Below are positions 13,639 to 48,235 of a stretch of 48,841 nt of DNA, one piece after another. The position numbers and the translations under genes were made by a program. Position 1 is the first letter of the stretch, and each line of letters starts with the position of its first letter. The notes under the pieces were generated by a model. The model was not told the DNA's origin, did no database searches, and was given only the letters and a program-made list of their open reading frames with translations. The stretch is from Candidatus Zixiibacteriota bacterium (lineage in GTDB: Bacteria; Zixibacteria; MSB-5A5; UBA10806): contig CP070742.1 of NCBI GenBank assembly GCA_020348065.1, forward strand, positions 1,005,509 to 1,054,349. Reading direction: 5' to 3'.

Positions 13639-15024
13639 ATGAAAAGGTCGATCTTATTTTTCATCTGTTCGGTTATCGTCGTTTTTGTTCTGACAACGGC
13701 TGCCGAAACATATGCTGACGTAGACGATTTGCTAAGGCAATATGAGACCGGCGATAAGGACTTCGAGAAATTCGAAATAGGCGATTTGACAGTATACTGG
13801 CATCAAAGGACCATAGACGGGGCTATAGTGGAAAAGGACCAGATCGTTTATCAATTTGACGGCGATTCCAAACAACTTCTTGATAAAAAAATGCATTGGC
13901 GGGAGGATCTTCCGCAAGATATTACAGTTAATATAGATGCAGAGGAGGCAGAATCTAAAATTGAGGGAGAACCGATCAGCTCTACGTTGTATATTATTTC
14001 CCCCGAATCCGACGTTTATAAAGTCGATCCGATACCGGATAATCCCTGCTGGATAGTGAGGATTTTAAGAGACGATGAAATGCGAATTGTTATTGTCGAT
14101 GCTGTAACGGGCGATTCGCTGGGCTACGGCGTTCCGCCCCCATATGAGTCGTTTTCTTTAACCGGTCCGTGGTATCCTGATCCCTGCAGTGGAGGGTGGC
14201 TCGACTGGTATGAAAGCGCCGAATACTGGTTCAATTTGATGGGCTATAGTTGCGAGGCGATCTTACGGCCTGAAAAGGGGATTATTCAAGGTCATGTTCA
14301 AAGCACTTCAACAGGTATGTTTTACGAACTGGCCCACGGCGGAAGCAACGTTTTCGTCAGCGGCTGTATTGATGGAACAAATTACGAACTTACGAGGGCA
14401 TCTGATATTGAATCGTGGATTGCGTATTACCCCGAAATGCGTTTTGCCTTTATGGGCAGCTGCCTGGGAATGTGTGAAACGGGCGATAATACGTTTTCGT
14501 ACGAGTTCCGAAAGGGCAGTATGACCAATACCGTCACAGTAGGTTATTGCGAAATGGCCGAAGATTATTGTGCTCTCTGCTGGGATTATTCCATCGATTG
14601 GCAGGACTCATTATTCAGCTATATGTATCTGGGGTGGACGGTGAAAGACGCGTTTGATCAGGCCCAGGCTGATTATCCCGCCTGTGCCGGATCGAGCAAC
14701 TGCATGAGGTTTGTCGGAGACGAAAATTTCAGCGGCCCCTATTACCGGTCGTCCGATTTTTGCCACTACGTGGCGGGCGATGTCAACGGCAGCGATAGCT
14801 ATAACGGTCTCGACATCACATATGGCGTCGCATACTTAAAGGGTGGCTCCGAGCCCATGTGTCCCTTCGGTTCCTGCCCTTTTCCATCCTGCAACGATTT
14901 TTTTTACTGTGGCGATGTTAACGGCAACTGTTCATATAACGGCCTCGATATTACTTACGGTGTCAACTATCTTAAAGGCGGCGATTCTCCGATACCCTGC
15001 CCGGCATGCCCGCCAATAAATTAA
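13639..15024 (+). CDS. Secreted protein with possible caspase-like fold and two dockerin-like repeats
   Basis: A clear signal peptide (SILFFICSVIVVFVLTTAAE) follows the start; AAGGAGAAAAA precedes the ATG. The region to about residue 170 has the character of an exported prodomain. A central domain carries FYELAHGGSNVF with His233 and FMGSCLGMCE with Cys275. A His-Gly followed about 40 residues later by a Cys after a hydrophobic strand matches the catalytic pair of clan CD cysteine peptidases (gingipain/C25, CHAT, metacaspase). This assignment is inference. Two dockerin-like repeats begin at Gly380 (GDVNGSDSYNGLDITYG) and Gly425, with a Cys-Pro linker between them. The pair matches the protein truncated at the left edge of the window. 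The gene appears to stand alone and may have lost a membrane sorting signal that now lies out of frame just downstream. Confidence 0.75.
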   Translation: MKRSILFFICSVIVVFVLTTAAETYADVDDLLRQYETGDKDFEKFEIGDLTVYWHQRTIDGAIVEKDQIVYQFDGDSKQLLDKKMHWREDLPQDITVNIDAEEAESKIEGEPISSTLYIISPESDVYKVDPIPDNPCWIVRILRDDEMRIVIVDAVTGDSLGYGVPPPYESFSLTGPWYPDPCSGGWLDWYESAEYWFNLMGYSCEAILRPEKGIIQGHVQSTSTGMFYELAHGGSNVFVSGCIDGTNYELTRASDIESWIAYYPEMRFAFMGSCLGMCETGDNTFSYEFRKGSMTNTVTVGYCEMAEDYCALCWDYSIDWQDSLFSYMYLGWTVKDAFDQAQADYPACAGSSNCMRFVGDENFSGPYYRSSDFCHYVAGDVNGSDSYNGLDITYGVAYLKGGSEPMCPFGSCPFPSCNDFFYCGDVNGNCSYNGLDITYGVNYLKGGDSPIPCPACPPIN

Positions 15025-15737: not shown

Positions 15738-15765
15738 TTGACCGCGGTCTTTGATTTAATATAAT
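15738..15765 (+). promoter_or_regulatory. Near-consensus sigma-70-type promoter of the redox-signalling operon
   Basis: TTGACC (-35, 15738-15743) and TATAAT (-10, 15760-15765) are separated by 16 bases; eleven of twelve positions match consensus. Transcription would begin near 15772, about 47 bases before the TTG start of the HTH regulator gene. Confidence 0.7.
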
Positions 15766-15781
15766 TACCGATAGAATCGAT

Positions 15782-15815
15782 AAAATGCATAAAATGCAGA
15801 AAAGAAAGAAATGCA
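15782..15815 (+). repeat. Three direct AAATGCA repeats in the operon leader
   Basis: AAAATGCA occurs at 15782-15789 and 15791-15798 (9-base period), and AAATGCA again at 15809-15815. They lie between the expected transcription start and the HTH gene. Proteins with MerR/BldC-like DNA-binding domains can bind direct repeats, so this could be an autoregulatory site; that is inference. Confidence 0.4.
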
Positions 15816-15818
15816 AAC

Positions 15819-16598
15819 TTGAATCAAGGAATCCAAAGGAAAGAATTCGTTTCGACCGGAAAAGCGGCGGAATTGTGTTCGGTAACTCCGGATACGGTGT
15901 TGAAATGGATAAAATCCGGTAAATTAGCGGCCAATAGGACGCCGGGGGGGCATTATAGAATTCACAGGGAAACCCTGCTGGAGATAATTGAATCAGGCAG
16001 CCTGCATGCTCATATCGATACGATTAAACAGCCTTTTCAATTTTGCTGGGAATATTATGAAAGGAACGGCGGATATGAGTATGAATGCCATGAATGCATT
16101 GTCTACCGTTCGAGGGCGTTGCGTTGCTATGAGATGATCCAGCTTCCGTCCGAGTCGGGGCATGCCAAACTCCATTGCCATGGAGCATGTTATGATTGCG
16201 AATATTACAGGGTCGTCAAGGGTCAGCAATTGAACGTTCTTCTTATCGCAGGACAGGAGGATCTGAAAAAGGAGATTGAATCTAATGCCAGTAAGGCCGA
16301 CTATAATCTTCAAATTGCGGAGAGCGAATATCGCTGTTCAATGATAGTTGAGAATTTCCGGCCCGACTATGTTATTATCGACTGTTCCATCGGCAAGAAA
16401 GAATGCGGTAACTTCACCAGACATCTCTACGAAGATCCCCGCCTGCCCTATGTAAAGATTATCCTGGTCGGCGATTCCCATGATATCCCTTCCGAGTGCA
16501 ACGGTTTGATATTCGCCGTTATGAAAGAGCCGTTTACATTATTCAAGTTAGAAAACCTTATCGGATTGGCAAAATTGGGAAAAATGGCGGAGGCTTGA
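15819..16598 (+). CDS. Cys-rich HTH regulator with receiver-like C-terminus
   Basis: Residues 9-60 form an excisionase/BldC-like winged helix-turn-helix (TGKAAELCSVTPDTVLKWIK, then GGHYRIHRETL). The next segment has seven cysteines at about 76, 90, 93, 103, 120, 124 and 127 (CHECIVYRSRALRC, HCHGACYDCEYY), a pattern suited to Zn or Fe-S binding. The C-terminal 120 residues resemble a degenerate receiver domain (DYVIIDCS in place of a clear phospho-acceptor site). It is probably a redox- or metal-responsive transcription factor for its own operon, which carries iron-sulfur enzymes. The start is a TTG at 15819: no ATG or GTG is in frame between the upstream stop at 15762-15764 and the HTH. It is the first gene of the operon. 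Confidence 0.8.
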   Translation: MNQGIQRKEFVSTGKAAELCSVTPDTVLKWIKSGKLAANRTPGGHYRIHRETLLEIIESGSLHAHIDTIKQPFQFCWEYYERNGGYEYECHECIVYRSRALRCYEMIQLPSESGHAKLHCHGACYDCEYYRVVKGQQLNVLLIAGQEDLKKEIESNASKADYNLQIAESEYRCSMIVENFRPDYVIIDCSIGKKECGNFTRHLYEDPRLPYVKIILVGDSHDIPSECNGLIFAVMKEPFTLFKLENLIGLAKLGKMAEA

Positions 16599-16636
16599 GA
16601 TAAATGAGTTTTGTTACCATGGCGAATTGGCCGGAT

Positions 16637-16664
16637 TTGAAAAGTGATATGATTCATTTAATAT
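16637..16664 (+). promoter_or_regulatory. Possible internal promoter with dyad before the macro-domain gene
   Basis: TTGAAA (16637-16642) and TAATAT (16659-16664) are separated by 16 bases. A TGATAT...ATATCA inverted repeat overlaps the spacer and -10. The site could allow expression of the macro-domain gene and those downstream independently of the first gene. Confidence 0.3.
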
Positions 16665-16744
16665 CATTTTTGGGGTCTTACGAAATACGGGCTATTTCTT
16701 CGGGTAAAAGGACGAAAATAAAATACAAAGTAGGAGACTGAAAC

Positions 16745-17275
16745 ATGGCGGATGAAATACGGATTGGGCAAAGGGCAATTCGTCTCAAAAACAGCGATAT
16801 AACCGATATGGAGGTTGAGTGTTTTGTTTATTATGCCAGATCGGATTTGAAACTGGGCGCGGGTTACGGCGGCGCGATTGCCGTACGGGGGGGACCGCAG
16901 ATCCAGAAAACGCTCGATGAAATGGCTCCTATTGGTCCATGTGAAGCTGTTATAACCGACGCCGGGGAATTGAAAGCGAAATATATAATTCATGCCAACG
17001 GCCCGAAGTTTCAGGAAGAAGATGCTGAAAGCAAACTGAAAACCACCATATTAAATGCTTTAAGGCTGGCCGATGATAAGGGAATAAGACAGCTCGCGCT
17101 GCCAACGATGGGAACGGGGTTTTACGGCATACCGCTCGATAGAAGCGCGGATGTTTCTCTTAATACCGTAAAAAACTATCTTCAGAATGACACCGGTATA
17201 GAGGAAATTATTTTTTGTGCTATTGATAGTCGTGAATACCTGCCATTTAGAACGCAACTTGATAAAATGGCTTGA
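16745..17275 (+). CDS. Macro-domain protein with altered active-site motif
   Basis: The protein of 176 residues is essentially one macro domain. The N-terminal strand is IRLKNSDIT, the ligand loop is KLGAGYGGAIAVRGGPQIQ, and the second conserved loop is LALPTMGTGFYGIPLD. Macro domains bind ADP-ribose and related nucleotides, and some remove ADP-ribose from proteins. The usual NAAN motif ahead of the first loop, which supplies a key Asn in many hydrolases, is replaced by YYAR. This copy may therefore bind rather than hydrolyse its ligand. It sits between a Cys-rich regulator and a membrane iron-sulfur complex, so sensing of NAD-derived metabolites is an attractive but unproven role. The ATG follows AGGAGACTGAAAC. 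Confidence 0.85.
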   Translation: MADEIRIGQRAIRLKNSDITDMEVECFVYYARSDLKLGAGYGGAIAVRGGPQIQKTLDEMAPIGPCEAVITDAGELKAKYIIHANGPKFQEEDAESKLKTTILNALRLADDKGIRQLALPTMGTGFYGIPLDRSADVSLNTVKNYLQNDTGIEEIIFCAIDSREYLPFRTQLDKMA

Positions 17276-17291
17276 GGGGAGGAGGAATCGT

Positions 17292-17963
17292 ATGGATTTT
17301 CAACATTTCGCGGAACATCGTCTTCAGGAAATCGCCCTGCTCATTATGGCCATTGTATACATTTTACGTTTAAGATGGCTTCTTAAATTTAAGGCGGGAA
17401 AAGAGCGTCAACCCAAGACCGGTTTGCCGGGAACCACCATGAAAAAAGGGATATTGTACTCCTGGGCGAATATTTTCATGCCCTGGGCGATGGAAAGTAC
17501 CAGGGCCAGGTTTTTCATTTATCTCCAATTTGCCTTTTTCCATGTGGGAGTAACCCTGGCGATATTATTATCGTTTTTAATTCCTTATGCACCAGGGCTT
17601 CTGGAGATTTCCGTATTGGTTATCGCGTTTCAAATATTTATCGGTCTGGCATGCGTTATCGGTATACTCAGGATATTGCGTCGGATTAGCAATAAATATA
17701 TGAGGGCAATCAGCACTCCCGATGATTATTTCTCTTTGATTTTATTGACTGTATGGTTTTTCTTTGCCACGTTGTCGGTACCGAATAATGGCGGTACCAT
17801 CCAGCTTATATATTTTCTTCTTACGGCGTTTTTCCTGATTTACGTGCCGTTTAGCAAAATATCGCATTACCTGTATTATCCGTTTACCAGGTATTACTTC
17901 GGAAAAACCATGGGATATCGCGGAACCTATCCGCTGAAACACATTACCCCGCCTCAATCATGA
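17292..17963 (+). CDS. Five-helix membrane subunit of a redox complex (NarI/DsrM/TmcC-like)
   Basis: I take the ATG at 17292 because GGGGAGGA lies just upstream; the frame also opens earlier inside the macro gene. The 223-residue protein has five hydrophobic helices, beginning EIALLIMAIVYILRL and ending FFLIYVPFSKISHYLYY, with histidines near helix edges (FAFFHVG, ISHYL) that could ligate haem b. This is the layout of the quinone-facing cytochrome subunits of NarI, DsrM and TmcC type. Its stop overlaps the ATG of the HdrD-like gene (ATGA at 17960-17963), and paired subunits of this kind are usually encoded that way. It would anchor the cytoplasmic iron-sulfur protein to the membrane and pass electrons to or from the quinone pool. 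Haem binding is inferred. Confidence 0.75.
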   Translation: MDFQHFAEHRLQEIALLIMAIVYILRLRWLLKFKAGKERQPKTGLPGTTMKKGILYSWANIFMPWAMESTRARFFIYLQFAFFHVGVTLAILLSFLIPYAPGLLEISVLVIAFQIFIGLACVIGILRILRRISNKYMRAISTPDDYFSLILLTVWFFFATLSVPNNGGTIQLIYFLLTAFFLIYVPFSKISHYLYYPFTRYYFGKTMGYRGTYPLKHITPPQS

Positions 17964-19744
17964 TTTACCCGGGACTTCAGGACAGGATGGTGAAAAATAT
18001 GGCTAAAAATAATGAAAGATCACATAAGGCACAGGTGGTGCTGGAACGTTTTGAGAAGAAATTAAACAGGCAGATTGTTGGATCGCTTGTGGCCTGCGTT
18101 CATTGCGGCAACTGCACCGATTGCTGTCACTACGTTCTGGCCAATCCCGGTGACACGACTTTCGCGCCCGCTTATAAGGCCGACCAGATTCGCAAGATAT
18201 TTAAAAGGCATTTCGACTGGACCGGCCGCGTTTTGCCGTGGTGGGTCAAGGCCAAATCGGTTTACACCGATGAGGATCTTGAAAATCTCAAAGATATAGT
18301 TTTCGGGAAATGCACCAACTGCAGGCGGTGTTCCATTAACTGCCCCATGGGCGTCGATTACGCCACATTTAACAGGATGGCGAGGGGGCTTCTGGTATCG
18401 GTGGGAATTATGCCCGAGGGCGTTGCCGTGGTAAGTAAGGACCAGTGGGAAATCGGCAACCAGATGGGCGTTCTCAAAGAGGATTACATCGAAACGCTCG
18501 AATGGCTCTCTGAAGAACTTGAAATGGAGATGAACGATCCCGAGGCGGTAATACCTATTGATAAAGAGGATGTAGATATTGTTTACACGATTAATCCGCG
18601 TGAGATAAAATACGATCCTCGCACTATTTCCGACGCGGCCAGGATATTTTACCAGGCGCGGGAAAGCTGGACAATGCCCAGCGACGGCTGGGATATGACC
18701 AATTTCGGTCTATTTTCCGGCGATGATGATCTTGGTGGGGCAGTGGCCGGACGGGTTTATGAAGCCACCAGGAAGCTTAGAGGAAAAAAGTTGGTAATGT
18801 CGGAATGTGGTCATGGATATAGATCCACCAGATGCGAAGGCCCGAACTGGGCAAAAGACGACATCGATTTCGAAATGGAGAGTTCTGTCATCACCATGCT
18901 TGATTACGTAAAAAGCGGCCGAATTAAAATCGATAAAAGCAAAAACGATTCTTCGTATACATTCCACGATTCCTGTAACAACGCGCGCAGCTGCGGTCTT
19001 TTCGATGAACCTCGGGAACTGCTTCAGCTGGCAGTTGATGATTTCAGGGAGATGTATCCCAATCGGGCCGAAAATTATTGCTGCACCGGCGGCGGCGGGG
19101 CCATGTCGATGTCGGAATATTCGGCAAGGAGGCTTAAATCAGCGAAAGTGAAAGCGGACCAGCTTAAGGCCACGGGTGCAAAGTACGTCGTAACCTCCTG
19201 TCATAACTGCGTCGACGGCCTCACTGATGTGATAAAACATTATAAGCTCGATATGCAGGTTACCCAGCTGGTTAACCTTGTGGCCAACGCGCTGGTGGAG
19301 GAAAGAAGGGGCATTCCGGTACCGGAGATACCCGTAGAGGTGAAGCCTGCTGTTTCCCTTAGCGGCAAAAAGATTCTTGTTACCGACGATGAGCCCGACT
19401 TCCTTACATTCCTGACTGCCGTTCTGGAAGATAATGGAGCGTCGGTGCTGACTGCGTCCAATGGTGATGAAGCTATAAGGCTGGCGCTGGCGGAAAAACC
19501 GGATTTGATTACGCTGGATCTATCCATGCCCGGCAAATCCGGTATTGAGACTTTTGAGATTTTACGGAAAGACGATGATACTACGTCGATTCCCGTATGT
19601 ATAATTACCGGCAAGCCCGAGATGAGAAGATTAATATACGAGCGCGCCGTAATCCCGCCAGAGGGTTATGTGGATAAGCCGGTGGACGAGGAAGGGATTC
19701 TGGTTAACGTGAGGAAGACCCTCGAGTTGGTGCATAAAAAATGA
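17960..19744 (+). CDS. HdrD/TmcB-like iron-sulfur protein fused to a response-regulator receiver domain
   Basis: The protein has 594 residues; starts at 17960 (overlapping the upstream stop) or 17999 are both possible. A ferredoxin-like module carries CVHCGNCTDCC (Cys46, 49, 52, 55, 56) and a second motif CTNCRRCSINCP near 116-127. A CCG-type domain follows, with FHDSCNNARSCG, YCCTGGGGAMSMSE and TSCHNCVDGL, as in HdrD, DsrK and TmcB, where it holds the catalytic non-cubane cluster. From about residue 470 to the end is a complete receiver domain: acidic pair Asp476/477, phospho-acceptor Asp520 (LDLSMPG) and Lys in YVDKPVD. The enzyme part would exchange electrons with a thiol/disulfide or carrier in the cytoplasm. 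The receiver implies control by the histidine kinase encoded next. The fusion is uncommon to my knowledge. Confidence 0.85.
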   Translation: MIYPGLQDRMVKNMAKNNERSHKAQVVLERFEKKLNRQIVGSLVACVHCGNCTDCCHYVLANPGDTTFAPAYKADQIRKIFKRHFDWTGRVLPWWVKAKSVYTDEDLENLKDIVFGKCTNCRRCSINCPMGVDYATFNRMARGLLVSVGIMPEGVAVVSKDQWEIGNQMGVLKEDYIETLEWLSEELEMEMNDPEAVIPIDKEDVDIVYTINPREIKYDPRTISDAARIFYQARESWTMPSDGWDMTNFGLFSGDDDLGGAVAGRVYEATRKLRGKKLVMSECGHGYRSTRCEGPNWAKDDIDFEMESSVITMLDYVKSGRIKIDKSKNDSSYTFHDSCNNARSCGLFDEPRELLQLAVDDFREMYPNRAENYCCTGGGGAMSMSEYSARRLKSAKVKADQLKATGAKYVVTSCHNCVDGLTDVIKHYKLDMQVTQLVNLVANALVEERRGIPVPEIPVEVKPAVSLSGKKILVTDDEPDFLTFLTAVLEDNGASVLTASNGDEAIRLALAEKPDLITLDLSMPGKSGIETFEILRKDDDTTSIPVCIITGKPEMRRLIYERAVIPPEGYVDKPVDEEGILVNVRKTLELVHKK

Positions 19745-19772
19745 AAAATCGGTCACTTTTTAAGGCAAAATA

Positions 19773-21239
19773 ATGGAGAATCTACGCCGCCGCTATTCCG
19801 ACAAGATTCTTGACGCTATTCCCGGTTATGTCTCCGTTCAGGATCGTGAGTTCCGACTGACCGCCGCAAATGACGCATTCCGTAAGGATTTCGGGGATAT
19901 CGAGGGAAGGTATTGTTACCAGGTTTACAAGCAGAGGCCGGAAAAATGCGAAAACTGCCCTGTGGAAAGGACCTTTCGTGACGGACAAAAACACCAAGGC
20001 GAGGAAATTGTCCGGACAAATGACGGCAGGGAAGTGCATGTGCTTGTTTATACTACTCCCATAAGGAACGAATCAGGGGAGGTCACGGATGTTATCGAGA
20101 TGTCTACCGATGTAACCGAATTGAAAAACCTTCATAATCAGCTTACAGAAAGCCGTCGGCGCTACAGGCAACTTTTCGAGGAGGTTCCCTGCTTTATTTC
20201 TATACAGGATCGTGACTTGAGGATTGTAGAGGCCAACAGGCTCCACAGGGAGGCGTTCGGAACATCGTACGGCAGCAAATGCTACGAGGTTTATAAACAC
20301 CGTACGGAAGAATGCTATCCGTGTCTTGTGAAAAAAACGTTTGATGATGGAGAGACGCATATTCACGAAGAGGTCGTTACCTCCAAAGCCGGGCAGAAAA
20401 TAAACGTCCTGGTGTCTACAATGCCGATAAAAAATCAAAACGGCGAGATCGAAAGCGTTATCGAAATGAGCATGGATATTACCCAGATAAGACAGTTGCA
20501 GTCGAAACTGGAGTCGATAGGTCTTCTCATCGGCTCGATTTCTCATGGATTGAAGGGATTATTAAGCAGCCTTGACGGTGGGTTTTATCTTGTCAACACC
20601 GGGCTTGAGAAAAATAACGAGGAACGTGTAAAGAAAGGGTGGGAGATAGCCCAGCGAAACGTTGAGCGAATCAGGAGTATGGTGCTCGACATACTTTATT
20701 ACGCCAAAGACAGAGAACCTGCCCGGGAACCGATCTCGGTTTCTGATTTGACTAAAGAGATTTATGGAATAATGACTCCGAAAGCGGAAAAGCTGAATAT
20801 TAAGCTGGAACTCATAAACTATGAAGAGGATGAAATCCTGGAAGCCGATCATAAGGCCATACGATCCATGTTTGTGAATCTTGTCGAAAACTCGCTGGAT
20901 GCTTGTCGGGTTGACGACAAAAAAGACGAGCATAAGGTCGTCATTTCCGCCAGGAATCACCCTGATCTTTTGGAATTTGAAATCGCCGATAACGGTATCG
21001 GAATGGATCAGGAAACGCGCGAGAAAGCGTTCAGTTTATTTTTCTCCTCCAAAGGCACGGAGGGCACCGGGTTGGGTCTTTTTATCGCCAATAAAATCGC
21101 CCAGGAGCATGGCGGGAGCATCGTGGTTGAATCTGAAGAGAACAAGGGAACTCGCTTTCATGTAAAATTGCCGAAAAAACGACTTGAAAAAGATCGAAAA
21201 GAGTTTGATACTGAAGTGGAAGAGGAGGAAAAGGAATAA
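19773..21239 (+). CDS. Soluble histidine kinase with two Cys-motif PAS domains
   Basis: The protein of 488 residues has no membrane helix. Two PAS domains lie at about 10-120 and 128-240. Each contains the same Cys pattern, C-x10-C-x2-C (Cys48/59/62 in the first; CYEVYKHRTEECYPC in the second), which could bind a metal cluster or act as a thiol switch. The phospho-acceptor is His258 in SISHGLKGLL, followed by a HATPase domain with N-box VENSLDACR, G1 DNGIGM and G2 GTGLGLFIANK. It is encoded between two receiver-bearing proteins whose receivers resemble each other, so it probably phosphorylates both. The signal is likely cytoplasmic redox state, given the Cys motifs and neighbours; this is inference. 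Its stop overlaps the ATG of the next gene. Confidence 0.9.
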   Translation: MENLRRRYSDKILDAIPGYVSVQDREFRLTAANDAFRKDFGDIEGRYCYQVYKQRPEKCENCPVERTFRDGQKHQGEEIVRTNDGREVHVLVYTTPIRNESGEVTDVIEMSTDVTELKNLHNQLTESRRRYRQLFEEVPCFISIQDRDLRIVEANRLHREAFGTSYGSKCYEVYKHRTEECYPCLVKKTFDDGETHIHEEVVTSKAGQKINVLVSTMPIKNQNGEIESVIEMSMDITQIRQLQSKLESIGLLIGSISHGLKGLLSSLDGGFYLVNTGLEKNNEERVKKGWEIAQRNVERIRSMVLDILYYAKDREPAREPISVSDLTKEIYGIMTPKAEKLNIKLELINYEEDEILEADHKAIRSMFVNLVENSLDACRVDDKKDEHKVVISARNHPDLLEFEIADNGIGMDQETREKAFSLFFSSKGTEGTGLGLFIANKIAQEHGGSIVVESEENKGTRFHVKLPKKRLEKDRKEFDTEVEEEEKE

Positions 21240-21619
21240 TGGGCGATAGTAAGAAGATACTTGTGGTTGACGATGAGCCTGATATGGTGACCTGGCTGAT
21301 GACTATTTTTGAGGATAACGGCTATGATACCATTTCCGCCGAAAACGGTATTGAGGCATTCGATAAAGCGAAATCAGAACAACCCGATCTGATAACTCTG
21401 GACATTTCGATGGACCAGGAGTCGGGTTTAAAAGCGTTGAGGAATCTTCAGGAATCAGAAGAAACCTCAAATATACCGATAATAATCGTTACCGGGGTCT
21501 CGGTTGATTTAAAGCGGTTCATTGAGCGCAATAAAAAACTCAAATTCCCGGAAGCGTTCCTGGAAAAGCCGATAGATAAAGACGAATTGCTGGATACGGT
21601 AGCGAAGCTTATCGATTGA
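21239..21619 (+). CDS. Single-domain response regulator (receiver only)
   Basis: The 126-residue protein is one CheY-like receiver domain with acidic pair Asp11/Asp12, phospho-acceptor Asp55 (LITLDISM), a conserved Thr in IVTG and Lys in LEKPID. No output domain follows. Its sequence closely parallels the receiver fused to the HdrD-like protein (shared PDLITLD, NGY/NGA and KP[IV]D segments), which suggests duplication of one domain. It may act as a phosphate sink or diffusible copy of the fused receiver. The ATG overlaps the kinase stop, so the two are translationally coupled. Confidence 0.92.
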   Translation: MGDSKKILVVDDEPDMVTWLMTIFEDNGYDTISAENGIEAFDKAKSEQPDLITLDISMDQESGLKALRNLQESEETSNIPIIIVTGVSVDLKRFIERNKKLKFPEAFLEKPIDKDELLDTVAKLID

Positions 21620-38414: not shown

Positions 38415-40097
38415 ATGGCCAATCCGACTTTCGACAGGATAAAAAGAATAGGGAAACCGTTGCGATGGCGTATCCTGGCAGTTCTTCTTTTCGCGTCTTT
38501 GCTTCCGCTGGCCCTGGCAGGATTCGGATCCTGGATTGTCTTTGGAAAACTCCTGGAGCAAAAATCGCTTAGCCAAATGAGCACACTGGTTGAAAGCCAT
38601 GCCGAAGCGATTGAAACTCATCTATCCGAGCAGTTGCGTCTGCTCAGGTTTATGGCCGAATCCCATTCTTTTGAAGATCTCCGCCGCGAGGAACATCTTA
38701 AAAAGCTGTTTTACGATTTGAACCGGTCGACTATGGGAGGATTTGTCGATCTCGGGGTAATCGACCTTGAGGGAAAACATCTGGCCTATGTCGGTCCATA
38801 TGATTTGCAGGATCGCAATTATCGTGACGCCGATTGGTTTAAAGAGGTCAATATCAAGGGCGAGTATATAAGCGATATATTTCTTGGATACCGTCAGGTT
38901 CCGCATTGCATTATAGCTGTCAGGACTACTCAGGGTAGCCGCTCCTGGATTTTGCGTGCTACTATAAACAGCGTCCAGTTCGACGCCCTGGTGAAAACCG
39001 GTACGCTCGGAGAAGGCAGTAATGCCTATATTGTCAATCGTGAAGGTCTTTACCAGACTACTCCTCGCCTCGGCAATCTCCTGGATAAATCGCCCGATTC
39101 CGTTATAGCTTTTCATACGGGATTACGCGAACGTCGCGTAAATTTCAATGGTAAAGCCAGGCTGCAGGTAACCACCTGGATTAACGATAACAGATGGATG
39201 CTTATAGTTGAGCGCGACCTCTCGGCAATCCAGGCGCCCGTTAATCAGGCTATCGCAAAGGGTGCGTATTTCGTGCTGCTGGCCGCTGTTTTTATGGTAT
39301 TCATAACGTTTTTCGCCACCCGGCATCTTACAAAACAGATTGAAAAGGCGACTGCCGAGCGGGAGGAGTTATCCCGGGCATTCGTTCGTTCGGCAAAGTT
39401 GGCATCCATAGGCGAATTGACAACGGGCCTGGCGCATGAGATCAATAATCCCCTGGCCGTAATCAGCGCCGAGCAGACCAACATATCCGACCTTACGCAG
39501 GAACCGGATCTGAATCCGGAAAAAATAAAGCAGATTGTGAACTCGGTAAAACGATGCCAGGCTCAGGTTAAAAGATGTGCGGGAATTACGCAGAAATTGT
39601 TGCAATTCGGTCGAAGTCAGGAATCGAAACTGGAGCCGACCGATATCGCCCCGCGTTTGACGGAGATAATTAATCTCATGCATCGTCACGCCAAGGTGCG
39701 AAACATCGATATCCATTCCACGGTCCAGGAAAATCTTCCGAAGGTTTTATTGGATCCGGTGGAATTGGAGCAAGTATTGGTAAACCTCATTAATAATTCT
39801 ATCGACGCCATGGCTGAAGGTGGGGAGATATTAATGAAATCTTATCGGGAGCGAGATACTGTCCTTATCGATATTATCGACAACGGACATGGTATTCCGG
39901 CCGATGTGCTCGACCGGATCTTTGAGCCCTTTTTCACGACCAAGCCGGTCGGGAAAGGAACCGGGCTGGGGCTGTCGGTCTGCTATGGTATGGTGCATTC
40001 CTGGGGGGGAACTATCGAGGCCAGGAGCACGGCAGGGAAAGGCACCACCATGCGCATAACGATACCGATCCGATCGGAGAATAAACAGGCGCGTTGA
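38415..40097 (+). CDS. Membrane histidine kinase with Cache-type extracellular sensor
   Basis: The 560-residue kinase has a first helix (LAVLLFASLLPLALAGFGSW), an extracytoplasmic region at about 45-275 with Cache-like features (GGFVDLGVIDLEGKHLAYVG, then WILRATINSVQFDALV and GSNAYIVNREGLYQTTPR), and a second helix (AYFVLLAAVFMVFITFFA). The HisKA domain has His341 in GLAHEINNPLAV, and the HATPase domain has LVNLINNSIDAM, DNGHGIP and GTGLGLSV. Cache sensors usually bind small extracellular ligands such as organic acids. The gene heads an operon that includes an anion transporter of the SLC13 type, so a transported carboxylate or sulfate is a plausible ligand. Its promoter is sigma-54 dependent. 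Confidence 0.93.
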   Translation: MANPTFDRIKRIGKPLRWRILAVLLFASLLPLALAGFGSWIVFGKLLEQKSLSQMSTLVESHAEAIETHLSEQLRLLRFMAESHSFEDLRREEHLKKLFYDLNRSTMGGFVDLGVIDLEGKHLAYVGPYDLQDRNYRDADWFKEVNIKGEYISDIFLGYRQVPHCIIAVRTTQGSRSWILRATINSVQFDALVKTGTLGEGSNAYIVNREGLYQTTPRLGNLLDKSPDSVIAFHTGLRERRVNFNGKARLQVTTWINDNRWMLIVERDLSAIQAPVNQAIAKGAYFVLLAAVFMVFITFFATRHLTKQIEKATAEREELSRAFVRSAKLASIGELTTGLAHEINNPLAVISAEQTNISDLTQEPDLNPEKIKQIVNSVKRCQAQVKRCAGITQKLLQFGRSQESKLEPTDIAPRLTEIINLMHRHAKVRNIDIHSTVQENLPKVLLDPVELEQVLVNLINNSIDAMAEGGEILMKSYRERDTVLIDIIDNGHGIPADVLDRIFEPFFTTKPVGKGTGLGLSVCYGMVHSWGGTIEARSTAGKGTTMRITIPIRSENKQAR

Positions 40098-40112
40098 TAA
40101 CGAGGTGCATTA

Positions 40113-40964
40113 ATGGAAACCAAAAAATGCCGGTTGCTGATCGTGGATGATGAGGAAGAGTTTCTGATTTCTTCCAGCCAGGCTTTAAGCAGGCGAGGAT
40201 TTATTGTCGATGCGGCTCTCAACGGTGTAACGGCGCTGGACAAAGTCGAGGAGGGCGAATACGACGCTGTTGTTCTTGATGTCAAAATGCCCGATATAGA
40301 CGGCATCGAGGTTTTTCATCAGATCCAAAAAATACGTCCAGATCTGCCGGTAATTTTATTGACCGGGCACTCATCGGTAGGCGACGCTTTTCAGACATCC
40401 AAAGAAGGGATTGCGGATTATCTTTCAAAACCGATTGAAATGGATGAGCTGGCCAATAAGATAAACCGCGCTATTTCCTCGGCGGAGAAGCGAGAAACAT
40501 CGGATGACAACGATCTCCAATTCATCGGCAAAGAGGAACCGATCCGGGTTATGATAGTGGATGATGAAATCGAGTTTCTGGATTCTATGAAACCGATTTT
40601 TCAGCGCAGGAAATTTATAGTGACAACAGCCATCGATGGAAAAGAAGCCCTGAAACTGTTACGCGGGGGATTGGTGGACGTAGTTGTGCTCGATGTCAGG
40701 ATGCCGGGAATGGACGGGTTGGAAGTTTTAAGGTGTATAAGGAAGGAATTTCCAAGCGTAGATGTTATCCTTTTAAGCGGTCATCCTTCCATAGAGGCCG
40801 CTATCGAAGGCGTTCGGCTGGGGGCCAGCGAGTATCTGAAAAAACCTCCCGATATTGATGAGCTGGTCGAGACTATCAGAAAACTCTATCTCAATCAAAA
40901 GCGCGCATATATCCAGCAGCAACAAAGGTTAATCGACGAAATCCGAAAGAGGTATCCGGAGTAA
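40113..40964 (+). CDS. Tandem double-receiver response regulator
   Basis: The 283-residue protein has two complete receiver domains. The first carries Asp12/Asp13 and phospho-acceptor Asp56 (VVLDVKMPD) and ends near 125. The second starts near 146 with VMIVDDE and has Asp194 (VVLDVRMPG). Both keep the Lys of the KP motif. No DNA-binding or enzymatic output follows. Two receivers in one chain allow phosphate relay, signal integration or protein-protein control. It starts 15 bases after the kinase gene, so it is the likely direct partner. One candidate target is the domain-poor sigma-54 activator encoded divergently. Confidence 0.9.
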   Translation: METKKCRLLIVDDEEEFLISSSQALSRRGFIVDAALNGVTALDKVEEGEYDAVVLDVKMPDIDGIEVFHQIQKIRPDLPVILLTGHSSVGDAFQTSKEGIADYLSKPIEMDELANKINRAISSAEKRETSDDNDLQFIGKEEPIRVMIVDDEIEFLDSMKPIFQRRKFIVTTAIDGKEALKLLRGGLVDVVVLDVRMPGMDGLEVLRCIRKEFPSVDVILLSGHPSIEAAIEGVRLGASEYLKKPPDIDELVETIRKLYLNQKRAYIQQQQRLIDEIRKRYPE

Positions 40965-41038
40965 TCCGGCGGGTGTGCAATGCGTAACGATATTTCCCAA
41001 ACGCCTTTAAATCCGCGTTCGGAAATGGAGCAATAAAC

Positions 41039-42886
41039 ATGCAGGATGCGGTAAAAACCAGGGCTTCCGCCTATGACCGCTATATCGATTACAAGCGATT
41101 TTCCATAGCCGTCGCCTTATTTGTATTCATTCTGATTCTTCCGATACCTGGCAGCATGCGGGATGTTGCGGTCGAATATACGATGGGGAAAAGCTATGTC
41201 CAGGATTTCTTCGCCGATAGGCTTTTCGGCAAACCCAACCATGAAATCGAGCAATGGCAGCGTTTAACCGTGGAAGTATTAGATGAATGCATGAAACAGG
41301 GCGTATCACGCAAGACGACTGTGCTGAAACGCAGCATAAAAGATCTGCAGAAAATGGGGATTCGAGGCGAGGAGCAGCATTTTACAAAATACCGAGTATT
41401 CATGGAAGGGGCCGACGAAACGACTATTAACAATCTACTCGTAAGTGGCCGGGATCTTCGATTTAATAAACTTGGCTATAACGATCTGACGCCGGAGCAA
41501 CAGAAGAAGGTCGATCGCGCGTCCAGGAATATTCTGGTTTGCATAGCCATGGTCGCCTTTGTGGTTGTCTGTTTTATGACGGAGGCTATTCCCCTGCCCG
41601 GAGTCGCCTTCTGTATCGGCCTGATTCTGGTTTTCTCGGGAATTGTCCCCAGGTCGGAAATCGCTCAGCTGTTCTGGTCCGATGCCTGCTGGTTTATTAT
41701 GGGCAGTCTGATGTTCGCCGCGGCTTTTGTGAAGACCGGGGTGGACAAACGCCTCTGTTTGACCATATTCCGATATCTCGCCAAACCCAATGTTAAATGG
41801 GTAACGGCTATTATGATCCTGGTAATATCTCCGGCGGCGTCATTTATCTCCGATCATGCCCTGGCCGCCATCTTTCTTCCCATCGGAATAATACTTTATG
41901 CCAACAGCCTTTCGAAAGCGGTTCCGGAAGACTCAGAGCTGGCCAAACTGTTGATGATAACAATCGCCATGGCATGTAACATCGGCGGCTTTGGATCACC
42001 GTCAGGAGGTGCTCGCAATGTTATTATTATGACCTACCTGGAGGATATGTTCGGCATTTCTATAGGATACGGCCAATGGATAATTTACGGTATGCCGTTT
42101 GTGCTGATTATGATGCCCATTCTATGGTTTACCCTTAATCGCGTCTTCAAACCTAAAATCCGGGATCTCGGCCCCGCCCTGGCGACTCTGCGGCAGGATA
42201 TTGACCGCATGGGAGGCTGGAATAAAAAGCAGATATTAGCGCTGGTTATATTTCTAATTATGTTTCTGGGATGGGTGACTGAAAGTTCGTTGATTGTTAA
42301 ATTGACCGGAATCCGTTTGGGGATTGGCGTTATCGCAATCGCGGGAGCCGTAGCGTATCTACTCACCGGCATCGTCAACTGGCGCGATTACCAGGAAAAG
42401 GTCGATTGGGGCGTGGTGTGGCTTTATGCGGGCGCCATTGTTTTCGGAAGACTGCTTGATCAGACGGGCGCCGCCTACTGGATGGCGCGGTCGATTGTTG
42501 ATGGATTGGCGACCATAGGATTAAACTCCGGAACCGTTCTCGTAGGCGCCGGGAGCCTGGTTACTGTTTTTATGACAAATCTTATGGCGGACGGTCCCGC
42601 GGCCGCCGCTGTCGGTCCCATAACTTTGAATATGGCCTCGGTCTCCAATCCGGGTACGGTACTGGTGCCATTCATGGGATTGGCCACCGCCTGCGCCTCC
42701 TCGATGGCTTACCTTTTGATAATAGGCACTCCCCCGAACGCGATTATCTATTCCAGCGGATATGTTACCGCCAGGGATTTTTTACGGGCGGGCGCCATAT
42801 GTGTTGTTATCTCTTTTGCGGTTTTAATTCTCTTAAGCGTTTTTTATTGGACTCTGATCGGATTCGGCGGTTTGTCGGCTCTATGA
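41039..42886 (+). CDS. SLC13/DASS-family anion transporter with an extended N-terminal loop
   Basis: The 615-residue protein has about a dozen membrane helices. After the first helix (FSIAVALFVFILILPIPG) comes a hydrophilic insert of about 130 residues not typical of the family. The remaining helices match SLC13/DASS permeases: TEAIPLPGVAFCIGLILV, then SFISDHALAAIFLPIG and a second related segment, MTNLMADGPAAAAVGPITL. The family signature SN[TA] in these two re-entrant loops is altered (SDHA, ADGPA), so ion coupling or substrate may differ from citrate/succinate/sulfate carriers. It is encoded between two receiver-bearing proteins and behind a Cache kinase, so transport and sensing are probably linked. 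Confidence 0.88.
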   Translation: MQDAVKTRASAYDRYIDYKRFSIAVALFVFILILPIPGSMRDVAVEYTMGKSYVQDFFADRLFGKPNHEIEQWQRLTVEVLDECMKQGVSRKTTVLKRSIKDLQKMGIRGEEQHFTKYRVFMEGADETTINNLLVSGRDLRFNKLGYNDLTPEQQKKVDRASRNILVCIAMVAFVVVCFMTEAIPLPGVAFCIGLILVFSGIVPRSEIAQLFWSDACWFIMGSLMFAAAFVKTGVDKRLCLTIFRYLAKPNVKWVTAIMILVISPAASFISDHALAAIFLPIGIILYANSLSKAVPEDSELAKLLMITIAMACNIGGFGSPSGGARNVIIMTYLEDMFGISIGYGQWIIYGMPFVLIMMPILWFTLNRVFKPKIRDLGPALATLRQDIDRMGGWNKKQILALVIFLIMFLGWVTESSLIVKLTGIRLGIGVIAIAGAVAYLLTGIVNWRDYQEKVDWGVVWLYAGAIVFGRLLDQTGAAYWMARSIVDGLATIGLNSGTVLVGAGSLVTVFMTNLMADGPAAAAVGPITLNMASVSNPGTVLVPFMGLATACASSMAYLLIIGTPPNAIIYSSGYVTARDFLRAGAICVVISFAVLILLSVFYWTLIGFGGLSAL

Positions 42887-42912
42887 GGCGTTTTTGGCAA
42901 GGGATTTTTAAT

Positions 42913-43794
42913 ATGAAAAATAACGATAAAAAAATAAAATTGCTTCTGGTGGACGATGAGGCCGATTTCCGAGAGGCTACATCCCGGGGATTATCCAGGC
43001 GCGGTTTTGATGTGATCGAGGCTGCGAGCGGCGAGGAATCACTGGAAATTATACGTAAAACAGTCCCGGAAATTGTCCTGCTGGATCAAAAGATGCCGGG
43101 GCTGAGCGGCATTGAAACTCTACAAAGAATCCGTGAAACGAATCCATCTTTGCCGGTGATTATACTTACCGGTCATGGGGATTACCAGACAGCGCTGGCG
43201 GGAATCAAATTCGATATTATCGACTTCATGCAAAAGCCGGTTGATATAGATCAGCTTGCCGACCATATCAGATATCTTATGCAAAAAGGAGCCGACAGGC
43301 CATTAAAAGAACCGACTATCGCCGAACTGATGGCCCCGCCGTCGCTATATCCGAAAGTTTATATGGACGATCCGCTGACAGCGGCGCTTAAGGCTATTTA
43401 CGATGCGTATACCAGGCCGGTCGATGAATATAATAAATACGGCCAGGTCCGTACCGCGCTGGTTTATGACCGCGACGAAAAATTCGTAGGGATGGTTCGC
43501 TTCTCGGATATCCTCAAATTGATCATACCGCCGTTTTTGAGCGATTCGCCTTATTCATCCTATTTTACCGGCATGTTTCTGGCGCAGGTTAAAGTTTTCG
43601 GCAAACAGAATATCAGCAGTCTTGTCAAGACACAGGTTTTCGTGGACGTGAACGCACCTATCATGGAAGCCATACATCTCCTTGTCGAACACAAATTAAT
43701 AAATATACCGGTGTTGAAAGACGGGGAGCTGGTCGGGATACTCAGAGGGCGTGATATAATCGTCGAAACGGCCAGGCTGGCAGGGGCTCTATGA
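42913..43794 (+). CDS. Receiver domain fused to paired CBS domains
   Basis: I take the ATG at 42913 (AAGGGA lies 8 bases upstream); an ATG at 42883 overlapping the transporter stop is possible but lacks a site. Residues 1-120 are a receiver with Asp14/Asp15 and phospho-acceptor Asp58 (VLLDQKMPG) and the Lys of MQKPVD. Residues about 138-290 hold two CBS motifs: IAELMAPPSLYPKVYMDD to KFVGMVRFSDIL, and VFVDVNAPIMEAIHLLVE to LVGILRGRDII. CBS pairs bind adenine nucleotides and often gate transporters or enzymes. A phosphorylation- and energy-dependent control of the adjacent SLC13 transporter is an attractive inference. The receiver resembles that at 40113 (shared SRRGF segment). Confidence 0.88.
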   Translation: MKNNDKKIKLLLVDDEADFREATSRGLSRRGFDVIEAASGEESLEIIRKTVPEIVLLDQKMPGLSGIETLQRIRETNPSLPVIILTGHGDYQTALAGIKFDIIDFMQKPVDIDQLADHIRYLMQKGADRPLKEPTIAELMAPPSLYPKVYMDDPLTAALKAIYDAYTRPVDEYNKYGQVRTALVYDRDEKFVGMVRFSDILKLIIPPFLSDSPYSSYFTGMFLAQVKVFGKQNISSLVKTQVFVDVNAPIMEAIHLLVEHKLINIPVLKDGELVGILRGRDIIVETARLAGAL

Positions 43795-44202
43795 TTATCG
43801 AATCTCTGAAATACAATCCAGCGCTTATGGTAAGATTAATTCATGACGGCAGCCTGTTTTATTTTCTCTATATCGTGAAAAAATTCACACCTGTCAAAAA
43901 ACCCCTCCGCCCGAAAATCAGATTTTATACAACATATGATACAAGCTGTTACACGCGCAAAATGGGGCGGGCCGTACGTCGCGTACACATAATGCCCTGG
44001 GCAACGCCCATTAGAAGAATTGGGAAAACGCGGAAAGGATATCTATGCCCTGACAATTACGCTTCATATAAAGAAAGCGGTTATGGGTATGGTGTATGGT
44101 TTTTGCTGCTCAATAATATAACAAATTCTTTTCATTTCGATTTAAAAACATCCATAAATAACGAAAACTCGAAAGCATTTTCGCTTTTAATAAAAAGGAG
44201 GA
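43795..44202. other. Gene-free region before the hdr/mvh operon
   Basis: An open frame crosses this region but its composition (many Tyr, Arg, Asn and no domain) argues against coding. A strong AAGGAGG ribosome-binding site near 44195-44201 introduces hdrC. I found no convincing promoter, although the gap suggests the operon has its own. Confidence 0.35.
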
Positions 44203-44838
44203 ATGATGGAGGAATGGCGTGGATGGCGAAAGATCAGTTATGAATCGGAACTGGACCATCTTTTCGTCAATGAAATAGCCTCGATCCCCGGTGGTGATAA
44301 ACTGTTTGCGTGTATCCAGTGCGGGACCTGCAGTGGAATGTGTCCCCTTACACCCTACATGGATTATACTCCCAGGCAGATAATCGCGATGATCCGGGCC
44401 GGTCTGAGGTGGGAGGTGCTGAGTTGCTACACCACCTGGCTGTGCGCGTCCTGTTATTCGTGTACGGTAGAATGTCCGAAGGAGATAAAGCTGACGGATA
44501 TAATGTATGCGGTGAAACGTATGGCTATCAAACAGGGGGTTTATCCCAAAAAATTCCCTATTCCCATACTGGCCAACGAATTTTTCAAATCGGTTGAAGA
44601 CTCCGGCCGGAGCAGTGAGGGGCGCCTGATCCTGAAGTTGTTTTTAAAGACCAATCCGCTGAAACTGCTATGGCAAACGGGCCTGGGATTACGGCTTTTC
44701 CTTAAGGGGAGATTCAGCCTTAAAAAAGAGGCCATTCATAGGAAAAATGAACTCAAATGCATGATCAAGGCATTAGAAACCGAACACATGGTCAAGAGCC
44801 GCGAGGAATTGGGTTTGGTCAAGGAGACGTCGATATGA
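44203..44838 (+). CDS. hdrC: Heterodisulfide reductase subunit C-like iron-sulfur protein
   Basis: The 211-residue protein has two [4Fe-4S] motifs of HdrC type: Cys37/40/43/47 (CIQCGTCSGMCP) and Cys81/84/87/91 (CASCYSCTVECP). HdrC carries electrons between HdrA and the catalytic HdrB. The tail after residue 130 is basic and helical. The ATG at 44203 or 44206 follows AGGAGG closely; the second gives better spacing. The stop overlaps the start of hdrB. In non-methanogens the HdrABC complex reduces or oxidises an unidentified disulfide or couples ferredoxin to other carriers. Confidence 0.92.
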   Translation: MMEEWRGWRKISYESELDHLFVNEIASIPGGDKLFACIQCGTCSGMCPLTPYMDYTPRQIIAMIRAGLRWEVLSCYTTWLCASCYSCTVECPKEIKLTDIMYAVKRMAIKQGVYPKKFPIPILANEFFKSVEDSGRSSEGRLILKLFLKTNPLKLLWQTGLGLRLFLKGRFSLKKEAIHRKNELKCMIKALETEHMVKSREELGLVKETSI

Positions 44839-45743
44839 ATTATTTGTATTATCCCGGATGTTCTTTAAAGGGTACCGGAAAGGCATACGAGGAGTCATTG
44901 CTGGCAGTATTCGATACCATAAACGTTTTTTTGGAGGAACTGGAGGATTGGAACTGTTGCGGCGCCACGGCCTACATGTCTATAAGCGAACTCAAAGCCT
45001 TCGCCCTGTCCGCGCGGAATTTTGCGCTTGCGGAAAGACAAAACAGAAATAACAGGACGGCCCAGCTTCTGGTACCTTGCGCGGCATGCTACCTGGGATT
45101 AAATAAAGCTCAACGGTATCTGAATGAATATCCGGAGTTGTTATCCATCGTAAAAGAAGCCCTGGACGAAGCCGATTTAATTTTATCCGGCCCCATCAGT
45201 ATCAGGCATCCGCTCGACGTGATTTACAACGATATAGGCTTAAAGACAATCAAAAATAACGTTGTTCGTCCCCTCGAGGGATTGAAAGTCGCATGTTACT
45301 ATGGCTGTCAGATAGTCCGTCCCTATGCCGATTTCGATGATCAGTTTAAACCGTATACCATGGACAGAATTATTCAGGCGCTGGGAGCGGAGGCGATCGA
45401 TTGGCCTTTGAAAACGCGGTGTTGTGGGGGCTCATTAACGGGCACCATAAAAGACGTCGGCCTCAGGTTGAGCTATATCCTGATCAACGAAGCAAAGAGG
45501 CGGGGCTGCGATATGATCGCCACCGCCTGCCCCCTATGCCAGTTCAATCTGGAATGTTACCAGAGGGAGATGAGAAAACAATACGGCCAAAAGCTGGACA
45601 TTCCGATCGTGTATTTTACACAGATAATGGGGATGGCGCTGGGAATAAACCCGCGTAAACTCGGCTTGCATAGACTGTTCATATCCCCGTCGAATGCCTT
45701 TGAAAAGAAAGCAACAGTTGGAGGCGCTCATGTCCATAGTTGA
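44835..45743 (+). CDS. hdrB: Heterodisulfide reductase subunit B-like protein
   Basis: I take the ATG at 44835, which overlaps the hdrC stop (ATGA-type) behind AAGGAGACG. The 302-residue protein has two CCG domains: CSLKGT (Cys9) with NCCGATAYMS (Cys41/42) and VPCAACY in the first, and CYYGCQIVRP with TRCCGGSLTG and TACPLCQFNL in the second. In methanogen HdrB these cysteines hold two non-cubane [4Fe-4S] clusters that cleave the CoM-S-S-CoB disulfide. A bacterium lacks those coenzymes, so the physiological disulfide is unknown. All motif cysteines are present, so the protein should be active. Confidence 0.92.
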   Translation: MNYLYYPGCSLKGTGKAYEESLLAVFDTINVFLEELEDWNCCGATAYMSISELKAFALSARNFALAERQNRNNRTAQLLVPCAACYLGLNKAQRYLNEYPELLSIVKEALDEADLILSGPISIRHPLDVIYNDIGLKTIKNNVVRPLEGLKVACYYGCQIVRPYADFDDQFKPYTMDRIIQALGAEAIDWPLKTRCCGGSLTGTIKDVGLRLSYILINEAKRRGCDMIATACPLCQFNLECYQREMRKQYGQKLDIPIVYFTQIMGMALGINPRKLGLHRLFISPSNAFEKKATVGGAHVHS

Positions 45744-47733: not shown

Positions 47734-48235
47734 TATCAATAAATCATCAAAAACTTTCAATCCGAGAATAGTCGCCTTTTTCTGCAACTGGTGTACCTAT
47801 ACGGCCGCGGATCTGGCCGGAACCGCCCGGATGACCTATGCTCCCAATGTCAGGGTCGTGCGAATCATGTGTTCGGGACGGCTCGATCCTCAATTCATAT
47901 TGAAGGCGTTAAGGGATGGAGCGGACGGCGTCTTAATCGGCGGATGCCATCCCGGAGATTGCCATTACCAGGAGGGAAACTACAAAGCATTGCGGCGATT
48001 TAACCTTCTAAAAAGATTGCTCAAATCGATCGGAATCGAAGAAGAGAGAGTTCGCATGGAATGGATCGCGGCCTCCGAGGGCGATAAGGTTCAAAAAGTG
48101 ATAAACGAAATGACGGAAACGGTCCGGCGCCTCGGGCCGCTGAATCTCGAGATACCAGCTGTGCCCTTGAAGGGACCGGTGATAACGGAACATTATCCGG
48201 AGACCGCTGTTTCTCAGGGGGCGAGTAATGAATAA
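47726..48235 (+). CDS. mvhD: MvhD-type hydrogenase delta subunit linking hydrogenase to HdrA
   Basis: The 169-residue protein has the MvhD pattern: FFCNWCTYTAADLAG near the start, then RIMCSGRLDP and GGCHPGDCHY, giving five cysteines for a [2Fe-2S]-type cluster. It bridges the [NiFe]-hydrogenase and HdrA in the Mvh-Hdr complex, passing electrons to the bifurcating FAD. It overlaps hdrA by 8 bases and the next gene by 8. Its presence next to hdrA and a hydrogenase small subunit supports hydrogen as donor or product rather than formate. Confidence 0.93.
   Translation: MSNINKSSKTFNPRIVAFFCNWCTYTAADLAGTARMTYAPNVRVVRIMCSGRLDPQFILKALRDGADGVLIGGCHPGDCHYQEGNYKALRRFNLLKRLLKSIGIEEERVRMEWIAASEGDKVQKVINEMTETVRRLGPLNLEIPAVPLKGPVITEHYPETAVSQGASNE

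Follow-up and report, generated by a model that had tools for sequence, protein, structure and literature searches.

The 48,841-nucleotide stretch of DNA from a Candidatus Zixiibacteriota bacterium analysed here (the window; its host genome is one contig of 3.74 Mb) encodes a protein in which an HdrD-like iron-sulfur CCG oxidoreductase and a complete response-regulator receiver are joined in one open reading frame (ORF). The fusion is a real, widely conserved and apparently undescribed variant of the Tmc/Hmc/DsrMK complexes. We consider evenly poised the proposal that it belongs to a membrane oxidoreductase of two subunits, found in sulfur-respiring bacteria, in which the cytoplasmic catalytic subunit is under the in-cis control of its own receiver. 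To judge from the sequence, the complex would most likely be of the Tmc/DsrMK kind, a menaquinone-DsrC(thiol) oxidoreductase which is gated when that receiver is phosphorylated. The features of the locus, in window positions, are the following.

15819 to 16598, + strand: accessory MerR/excisionase-type regulator (Pfam HTH_17, 4.9e-11) with a Cys-rich stretch and a degenerate receiver-like C-terminus
16745 to 17275, + strand: macro-domain protein belonging to the core of the operon (Pfam Macro, 5.4e-25; aligned to 2dx6)
17292 to 17963, + strand: cytochrome b membrane subunit of NarI/TmcC/HmcE type (NCBIfam TmcC 1e-10 and HmcE 2.7e-10, both below cut-off)
17960 to 19744, + strand: fusion of 594 amino acids (aa), with an HmcF/TmcB/DsrK-like iron-sulfur CCG part (about 20-447), a disordered linker (451-463) and a receiver (466-590)
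19355 to 19744, + strand: fused receiver domain with D476, D477, D520, T550 and K573 (Pfam Response_reg, 7.5e-19)
19773 to 21239, + strand: soluble sensor histidine kinase with two PAS domains carrying Cys triads, H258 and HATPase_c (Pfam domains and conservation)
21239 to 21619, + strand: stand-alone receiver, DVU0259/DivK-like, with a complete active site (Pfam, NCBIfam and alignment)

The operon runs from the macro gene to the stand-alone receiver gene. There is a four-base overlap between its cytochrome b and fusion genes and a one-base overlap between its kinase and receiver genes, which suggests translational coupling. In the fusion the Fer4_8, CCG and Response_reg domains all score above the Pfam gathering thresholds, the receiver match covering residues 472-582, and the reading frame, coordinates and residues Asp476/477 and Asp520 given in an earlier note on this DNA hold. 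The iron-sulfur part has the ligands of a CCG/HdrD-type protein, namely two [4Fe-4S] Cys sets (C46, C49, C52 and C56; C118, C121, C124 and C128) and one CX34CCX38CXXC set (C339, C374, C375, C414 and C417), and these Cys are conserved. The receiver has the full active site of a response regulator, with the acidic pair D476 and D477, the phospho-Asp D520, T550 and K573. Among 79 aligned fusions D476, D477 and K573 are found in 78, the remaining row being a gap, and D520 and T/S550 in all 79.

The enzyme part matches HmcF (2e-94), TmcB (5e-88) and DsrK (6e-72) of NCBIfam, each under its curated cut-off. It was not accepted as a member of HmcF, its best match (316.8 bits; NF045711, cut-off 750), of TmcB (295.7 bits; NF045724, cut-off 735) or of DsrK (242.8 bits; NF045796, cut-off 400). 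The name TmcB-like, given in the earlier note, is justified as a likeness and not as membership of TmcB or its kin. The note's mention of kinase genes near Tmc-type complexes is borne out by the relatives compared here and by PMC5109826. In a fold search the best match of the enzyme part was EtfD (9ojn; E 8.5e-14), which was also the only match in a sequence search of the PDB. DVU0259_DivK (NF045717, cut-off 160 bits) was the best-scoring receiver family for both the fused (82.1 bits) and the free receiver (107.3 bits), and neither qualifies as a member.

It was found that the fusion is widely distributed. One genome per species was scanned with two short patterns drawn from the enzyme part only, which gave 161 confirmed relatives, of which the best 80 were kept. 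All of these best 80 extend into the receiver, with 64-93% identity; the selection favours full-length copies, so this share is not a rate. The closest named relative, in a Candidatus Zixiibacteriota metagenome-assembled genome (MAG), is 93% identical over the fusion. In the window's class the complete fusion is encoded by 14 genomes and is 73-93% identical over its full length; the linker varies and the phospho-sites do not. Absence from close relatives, which the earlier note had named as fatal to its claim, is clearly not the case. By record titles the fusion occurs in more than 12 phyla: Zixiibacteriota, Calditrichota, Acidobacteriota, Gemmatimonadota, Planctomycetota, Bacteroidota/Ignavibacteria, Elusimicrobiota, Poribacteria, Myxococcota, Riflebacteria, LCP-89, Electryoneota, Abyssobacteria and Thermodesulfobacteriota, although individual labels may be wrong because nearly all of these genomes are MAGs. 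In the light of these data we reject an artefact, whether of assembly, of a frameshift or of a local fusion, as well as a passenger domain in decay. One copy (L130), which has lost the beta1-alpha1 stretch of its receiver, speaks for such a reading, but the frame is open in the 14 class genomes and the active site is kept in the 79 alignable copies.

The neighbouring genes are conserved along with the fusion. Counted only over loci where the contig leaves room, the macro gene stands upstream of the fusion in 77/77, and cytochrome b accompanies it in 79/79, the kinase in 74/76 and the free receiver, related to the fused one, in 60/70. The conserved unit is macro, cytochrome b, fusion, kinase and free receiver. 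This bears out the operon partners named in the earlier note, the macro gene included. The Cys-rich regulator that it had also counted as part of the module is not core, as a MerR-type regulator lies upstream in only 17/69 loci; its C76, C90, C93, C103, C120, C124 and C127 are conserved among relatives. By eye, in L103 and others the MerR-type regulator is replaced by a sigma54 activator-like protein (phosphatase-like N-terminus, PAS) or an Rrf2-type one.

These regulators bear on a reading in which the signal runs in the opposite direction. The redox sensor of the quinone/thiol pool would then be the cytochrome b/HdrD-like pair, whose attached receiver would report to the kinase as feedback or phosphate acceptor, and the output on gene expression would pass through the free receiver or another regulator. 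Tethering by a flexible linker, the second complete receiver in the operon and the frequent presence of a transcription regulator upstream (MerR, Rrf2 or sigma54 types) would suit such a sensor, and an iron-sulfur-binding receiver with feedback on its kinase is described in the accessible portion of PMC7078487. However, none of the Cys that bind clusters in its working relatives is missing from the fusion, and no DNA-binding output is common to all fusion loci. We regard this reversed flow as rather unlikely.

The start of the cytochrome b is most likely the ATG at 17292 and not the GTG at 17217, which lies within the macro gene; the earlier note's description of this subunit as NarI/TmcC-like stands on family and model likeness. 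TmcC and HmcE are the nearest named families, and membership of TmcC was rejected (41.5 bits; NF045723, cut-off 240). In its structure model the subunit is similar to NarI (E about 0.005, TM-score near 0.5) and, weakly, to EtfD. Two His, H84 and H192, are invariant among the aligned relatives and would be enough for one bis-His haem b. The macro protein has YYAR (FYAR in most relatives) in place of the usual NAAN, and GAGYG in place of the GGGVD-type motif. It was for this reason not taken as a MacroD-type ADP-ribose hydrolase, and the absence of these motifs makes a binding role likelier. In the kinase the two PAS domains and HATPase_c (2.5e-24) are above the Pfam cut-off. Pfam HisKA gives no match to it; the phospho-acceptor His is H258 in SISHGLKG, which together with HATPase_c identifies it as a sensor histidine kinase. 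H258 and the six Cys of the PAS triads (C48/C59/C62 and C170/C181/C184) are at least 95% conserved among 69 aligned kinases. A kinase-fused enzyme was sought in loci lacking a kinase gene or having a long ORF, and of the candidates L124 and L125 have ordinary fusions, while L075 and L132 are those with long ORFs.

When the fused and free receivers of the same genome were compared (58 genomes), the kinase-facing helix alpha1 was 56% identical and the remainder 37%, as would be expected if one kinase serves both. In a receiver tree built on few columns, 29/30 sampled fused receivers form one clade (99/98) and most free receivers of fusion operons form a second (95/89), with the receivers of split operons outside both; the exceptions L137 (fused) and L122 (free) are long branches. 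The split operons belong to relatives that share a phylum with L084 (titled Syntrophaceae), and their order is cytochrome b, enzyme, separate receiver, kinase and second receiver (L181, L182, L185), or the same without the second receiver (L183). The separate receiver is 42-50% identical to the fused one. That the split relatives keep the same order gives Rosetta-stone support for a receiver acting on the enzyme. A closer group, L175-L180, has an enzyme 64% identical to that of the fusion, with no fused receiver, and separate receiver and kinase genes; where the loci were read they encode a HEAT-repeat protein, a receiver, a kinase and a protein that matches universal stress proteins weakly, scoring slightly below the Pfam cut-off. 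No macro gene was found in the split loci or in those of L175-L180. In the enzyme tree L175-L180 fall inside the fused group, the divergent fusion L184 branching outside, which leaves two possibilities: L175-L180 lost the receiver, or the fusion arose twice. Beside the divergent fusion operon of L184 (2467-7135) there is a second set, consisting of a DsrK-like enzyme, its own membrane-protein gene, a separate receiver and a membrane kinase with a Cys-rich insert; the pairing of enzyme, receiver and kinase seems to be a wider pattern.

It could also be that the fused receiver is a phosphate sink, or a docking tag which brings the kinase to the membrane complex, with electron flow unaffected by phosphorylation. 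Two receivers per kinase, the likeness of both receivers in the kinase-facing alpha1 and the sister group without a fusion would agree with such a role. Against it, the fused receivers form a conserved clade of their own and their beta5-alpha5 stretch, GKPExRxLIYxRxVxPPEGYxDKP, is kept across phyla, and we consider a sink or tag distinctly improbable.

The fusion is associated with dissimilatory sulfite reductase. DsrA is present above its curated cut-off in 46/51 fusion genomes. Within the window's class it was detected in 28/34 genomes with the fusion as against 19/98 without it (Fisher p = 8e-11; the counts were made by hand from two tables, include fragments and ignore shared ancestry). 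In 17/80 loci dsr or sat genes are near the fusion operon; neighbour clustering gave proteins which we take to be DsrA, DsrC, DsrM, DsrN, DsrO, DsrP and Sat, and comparison with the host genome's own named dsr genes confirmed the dsr neighbours. The host itself encodes Sat, AprA, DsrAB, DsrN, DsrC, DsrM, DsrK, DsrO and DsrP, DsrB being the second match beside DsrA and DsrN a CobB-family protein. Judged by its gene content, the sulfate-reduction pathway is encoded by this genome. Both redox Cys are present in its DsrC, whose C-terminus reads ...CKVAGLAKPTGCV, and HdrA-like genes upstream of dsrA probably stand in the place of qmoAB. A search of the host genome for DsrD gave no match, and the control likewise matched nowhere. 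Between dsrN and dsrC, in the place expected for DsrL, lies a 561-aa NAD(P)-binding GltD-like protein (L138, 11867-13552). The host also has a second DsrK-like protein (L139, 9309-11841; 337 of 400 bits) away from the dsr cluster, adjoining a 309-aa protein with no family match at the threshold used. A receiver-less enzyme, about 41% identical, is found in class genomes without DsrA.

On these data we propose the following mechanism. The NarI-like cytochrome b would exchange electrons with the menaquinone pool, and the HmcF/TmcB/DsrK-like subunit, with its two [4Fe-4S] clusters and one CCG-type cluster, would relay them to or from a thiol/disulfide partner in the cytoplasm, probably the DsrC trisulfide. 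By analogy with DsrK and TmcB, with which the enzyme is homologous, electrons should move through the pair between menaquinone and such a partner, for which DsrC is the best candidate. With its two Cys-triad PAS domains the soluble kinase could sense the redox or sulfur state of the cytoplasm, and it could phosphorylate both the fused and the free receiver. Once phosphorylated, the tethered receiver would alter access to the catalytic subunit, or its activity, while the free receiver could be a second output or a phosphate sink. The macro protein may provide an ADP-ribose-type ligand input or be a structural partner. Such gating is plausible. It is possible, and we put it forward tentatively, that phosphorylation of the fused receiver gates electron-transfer turnover directly, without transcription, with the macro protein as a further nucleotide-derived input, so that sulfite/sulfate respiration would be controlled post-translationally across phyla.

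Several observations weigh against this proposal. The sister group L175-L180 lacks the fused receiver, which means that the fusion is not indispensable. A fixed interface between receiver and enzyme is not seen in the model of the fusion (pTM 0.69), where the receiver is well modelled (pLDDT about 95) and the linker 451-463 is disordered (pLDDT below 50); the modelling proposed in the earlier note has therefore given no confident docking, and a disordered linker with an undocked receiver fits a mobile regulatory domain and a docking tag equally well. There are 19 DsrA-positive class genomes without the fusion, and six class genomes with it in which DsrA was not detected. The correlation of fusion and DsrA distances is weak after correction for ribosomal protein L2 (partial r 0.23; 63/3000 permutations as high). 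Strict co-transfer of the fusion with dsrA was rejected for this reason; fusion distances follow L2 more (partial r 0.40), and the co-occurrence may come partly from shared descent. Mean pairwise identity is 73% for the fusion (44 genomes), 68% for DsrA (same 44) and 63% for L2 (39 genomes). In the 19 genomes mentioned above (G005, G045 and G137, for example) there are receiver-less HmcF/TmcB-like proteins, about 32-36% identical to the fusion where measured.

Comparison with known systems shows both the kinship of the complex and its peculiarity. The Tmc complex (TmcABCD, Desulfovibrio/Desulfobacterales) has a similar catalytic and membrane subunit (TmcB, TmcC) with kinase and DVU0259-type receiver genes adjoining. 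Unlike it, the fusion operon is without the TmcA cytochrome and TmcD, its receiver is fused and a macro gene takes the place of a universal stress protein. No TmcA multihaem cytochrome gene lies between the macro gene and the final receiver gene of the window, and ORFs with at least three CXXCH occur in only 12/80 fusion loci. A Tmc operon without TmcA is known from Seep-SRB1a/g, with no fusion reported in the available excerpts of PMC10553843; in the same excerpts DsrK- and TmcB-type complexes are predicted to reduce DsrC. In Desulfococcus multivorans kinase, response-regulator and universal-stress genes lie beside the Tmc/Hmc genes, an arrangement said to resemble that of Desulfovibrio vulgaris (PMC5109826). 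With signalling genes next to Tmc/Hmc already known, the fusion is a tight form of a known neighbourhood. HmcF of the Hmc complex is the best NCBIfam match of the enzyme part, but genes for HmcA-D are missing from the fusion operon. DsrMK of DsrMKJOP has the same pairing of cytochrome b with an HdrD-like CCG subunit and the same proposed menaquinone and DsrC sides; in contrast to the fusion, with 242.8 of the 400 bits, the DsrK of the separate true DsrMK in the host scores 731.4 bits. EtfD, the ETF:menaquinone oxidoreductase, is alike in the fold of the enzyme and weakly in the membrane subunit, but it is one chain and has no receiver.

Elsewhere in the window, a second redox/two-component neighbourhood (38415-48235) contains a kinase, a tandem-receiver protein, a DASS-type anion symporter, a receiver-CBS protein and a small protein, and continues with HdrC-, HdrB-, HdrA2- and MvhD/FlpD-like genes; here an Hdr complex again adjoins receivers. 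The protein encoded at 13639-15024 looks secreted and ends with two dockerin-like GDVNG...NGLDITYGV repeats.

To our knowledge, hardly anything is known of how sulfate reducers control the flow of electrons into DsrC and sulfite reduction, and no target that has been assigned to the two-component genes next to Tmc complexes is known to us. In the open-access literature no description of the fusion was found, in keeping with the earlier note's word 'undescribed', and two recent surveys of dsr genomes do not mention response regulators in their main text. Beyond that note, the present analysis adds the link with dissimilatory sulfite reductase, the single clade of fused receivers, the spread over many phyla and the split-gene relatives. 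A fusion present in many phyla makes the catalytic subunit itself a candidate target of the two-component genes next to Tmc complexes. If the gating is true, respiration would be controlled by phosphorylation instead of gene expression. The fusion also offers a means of recognising, in uncultured bacteria that respire sulfur compounds, a complex which has been overlooked.

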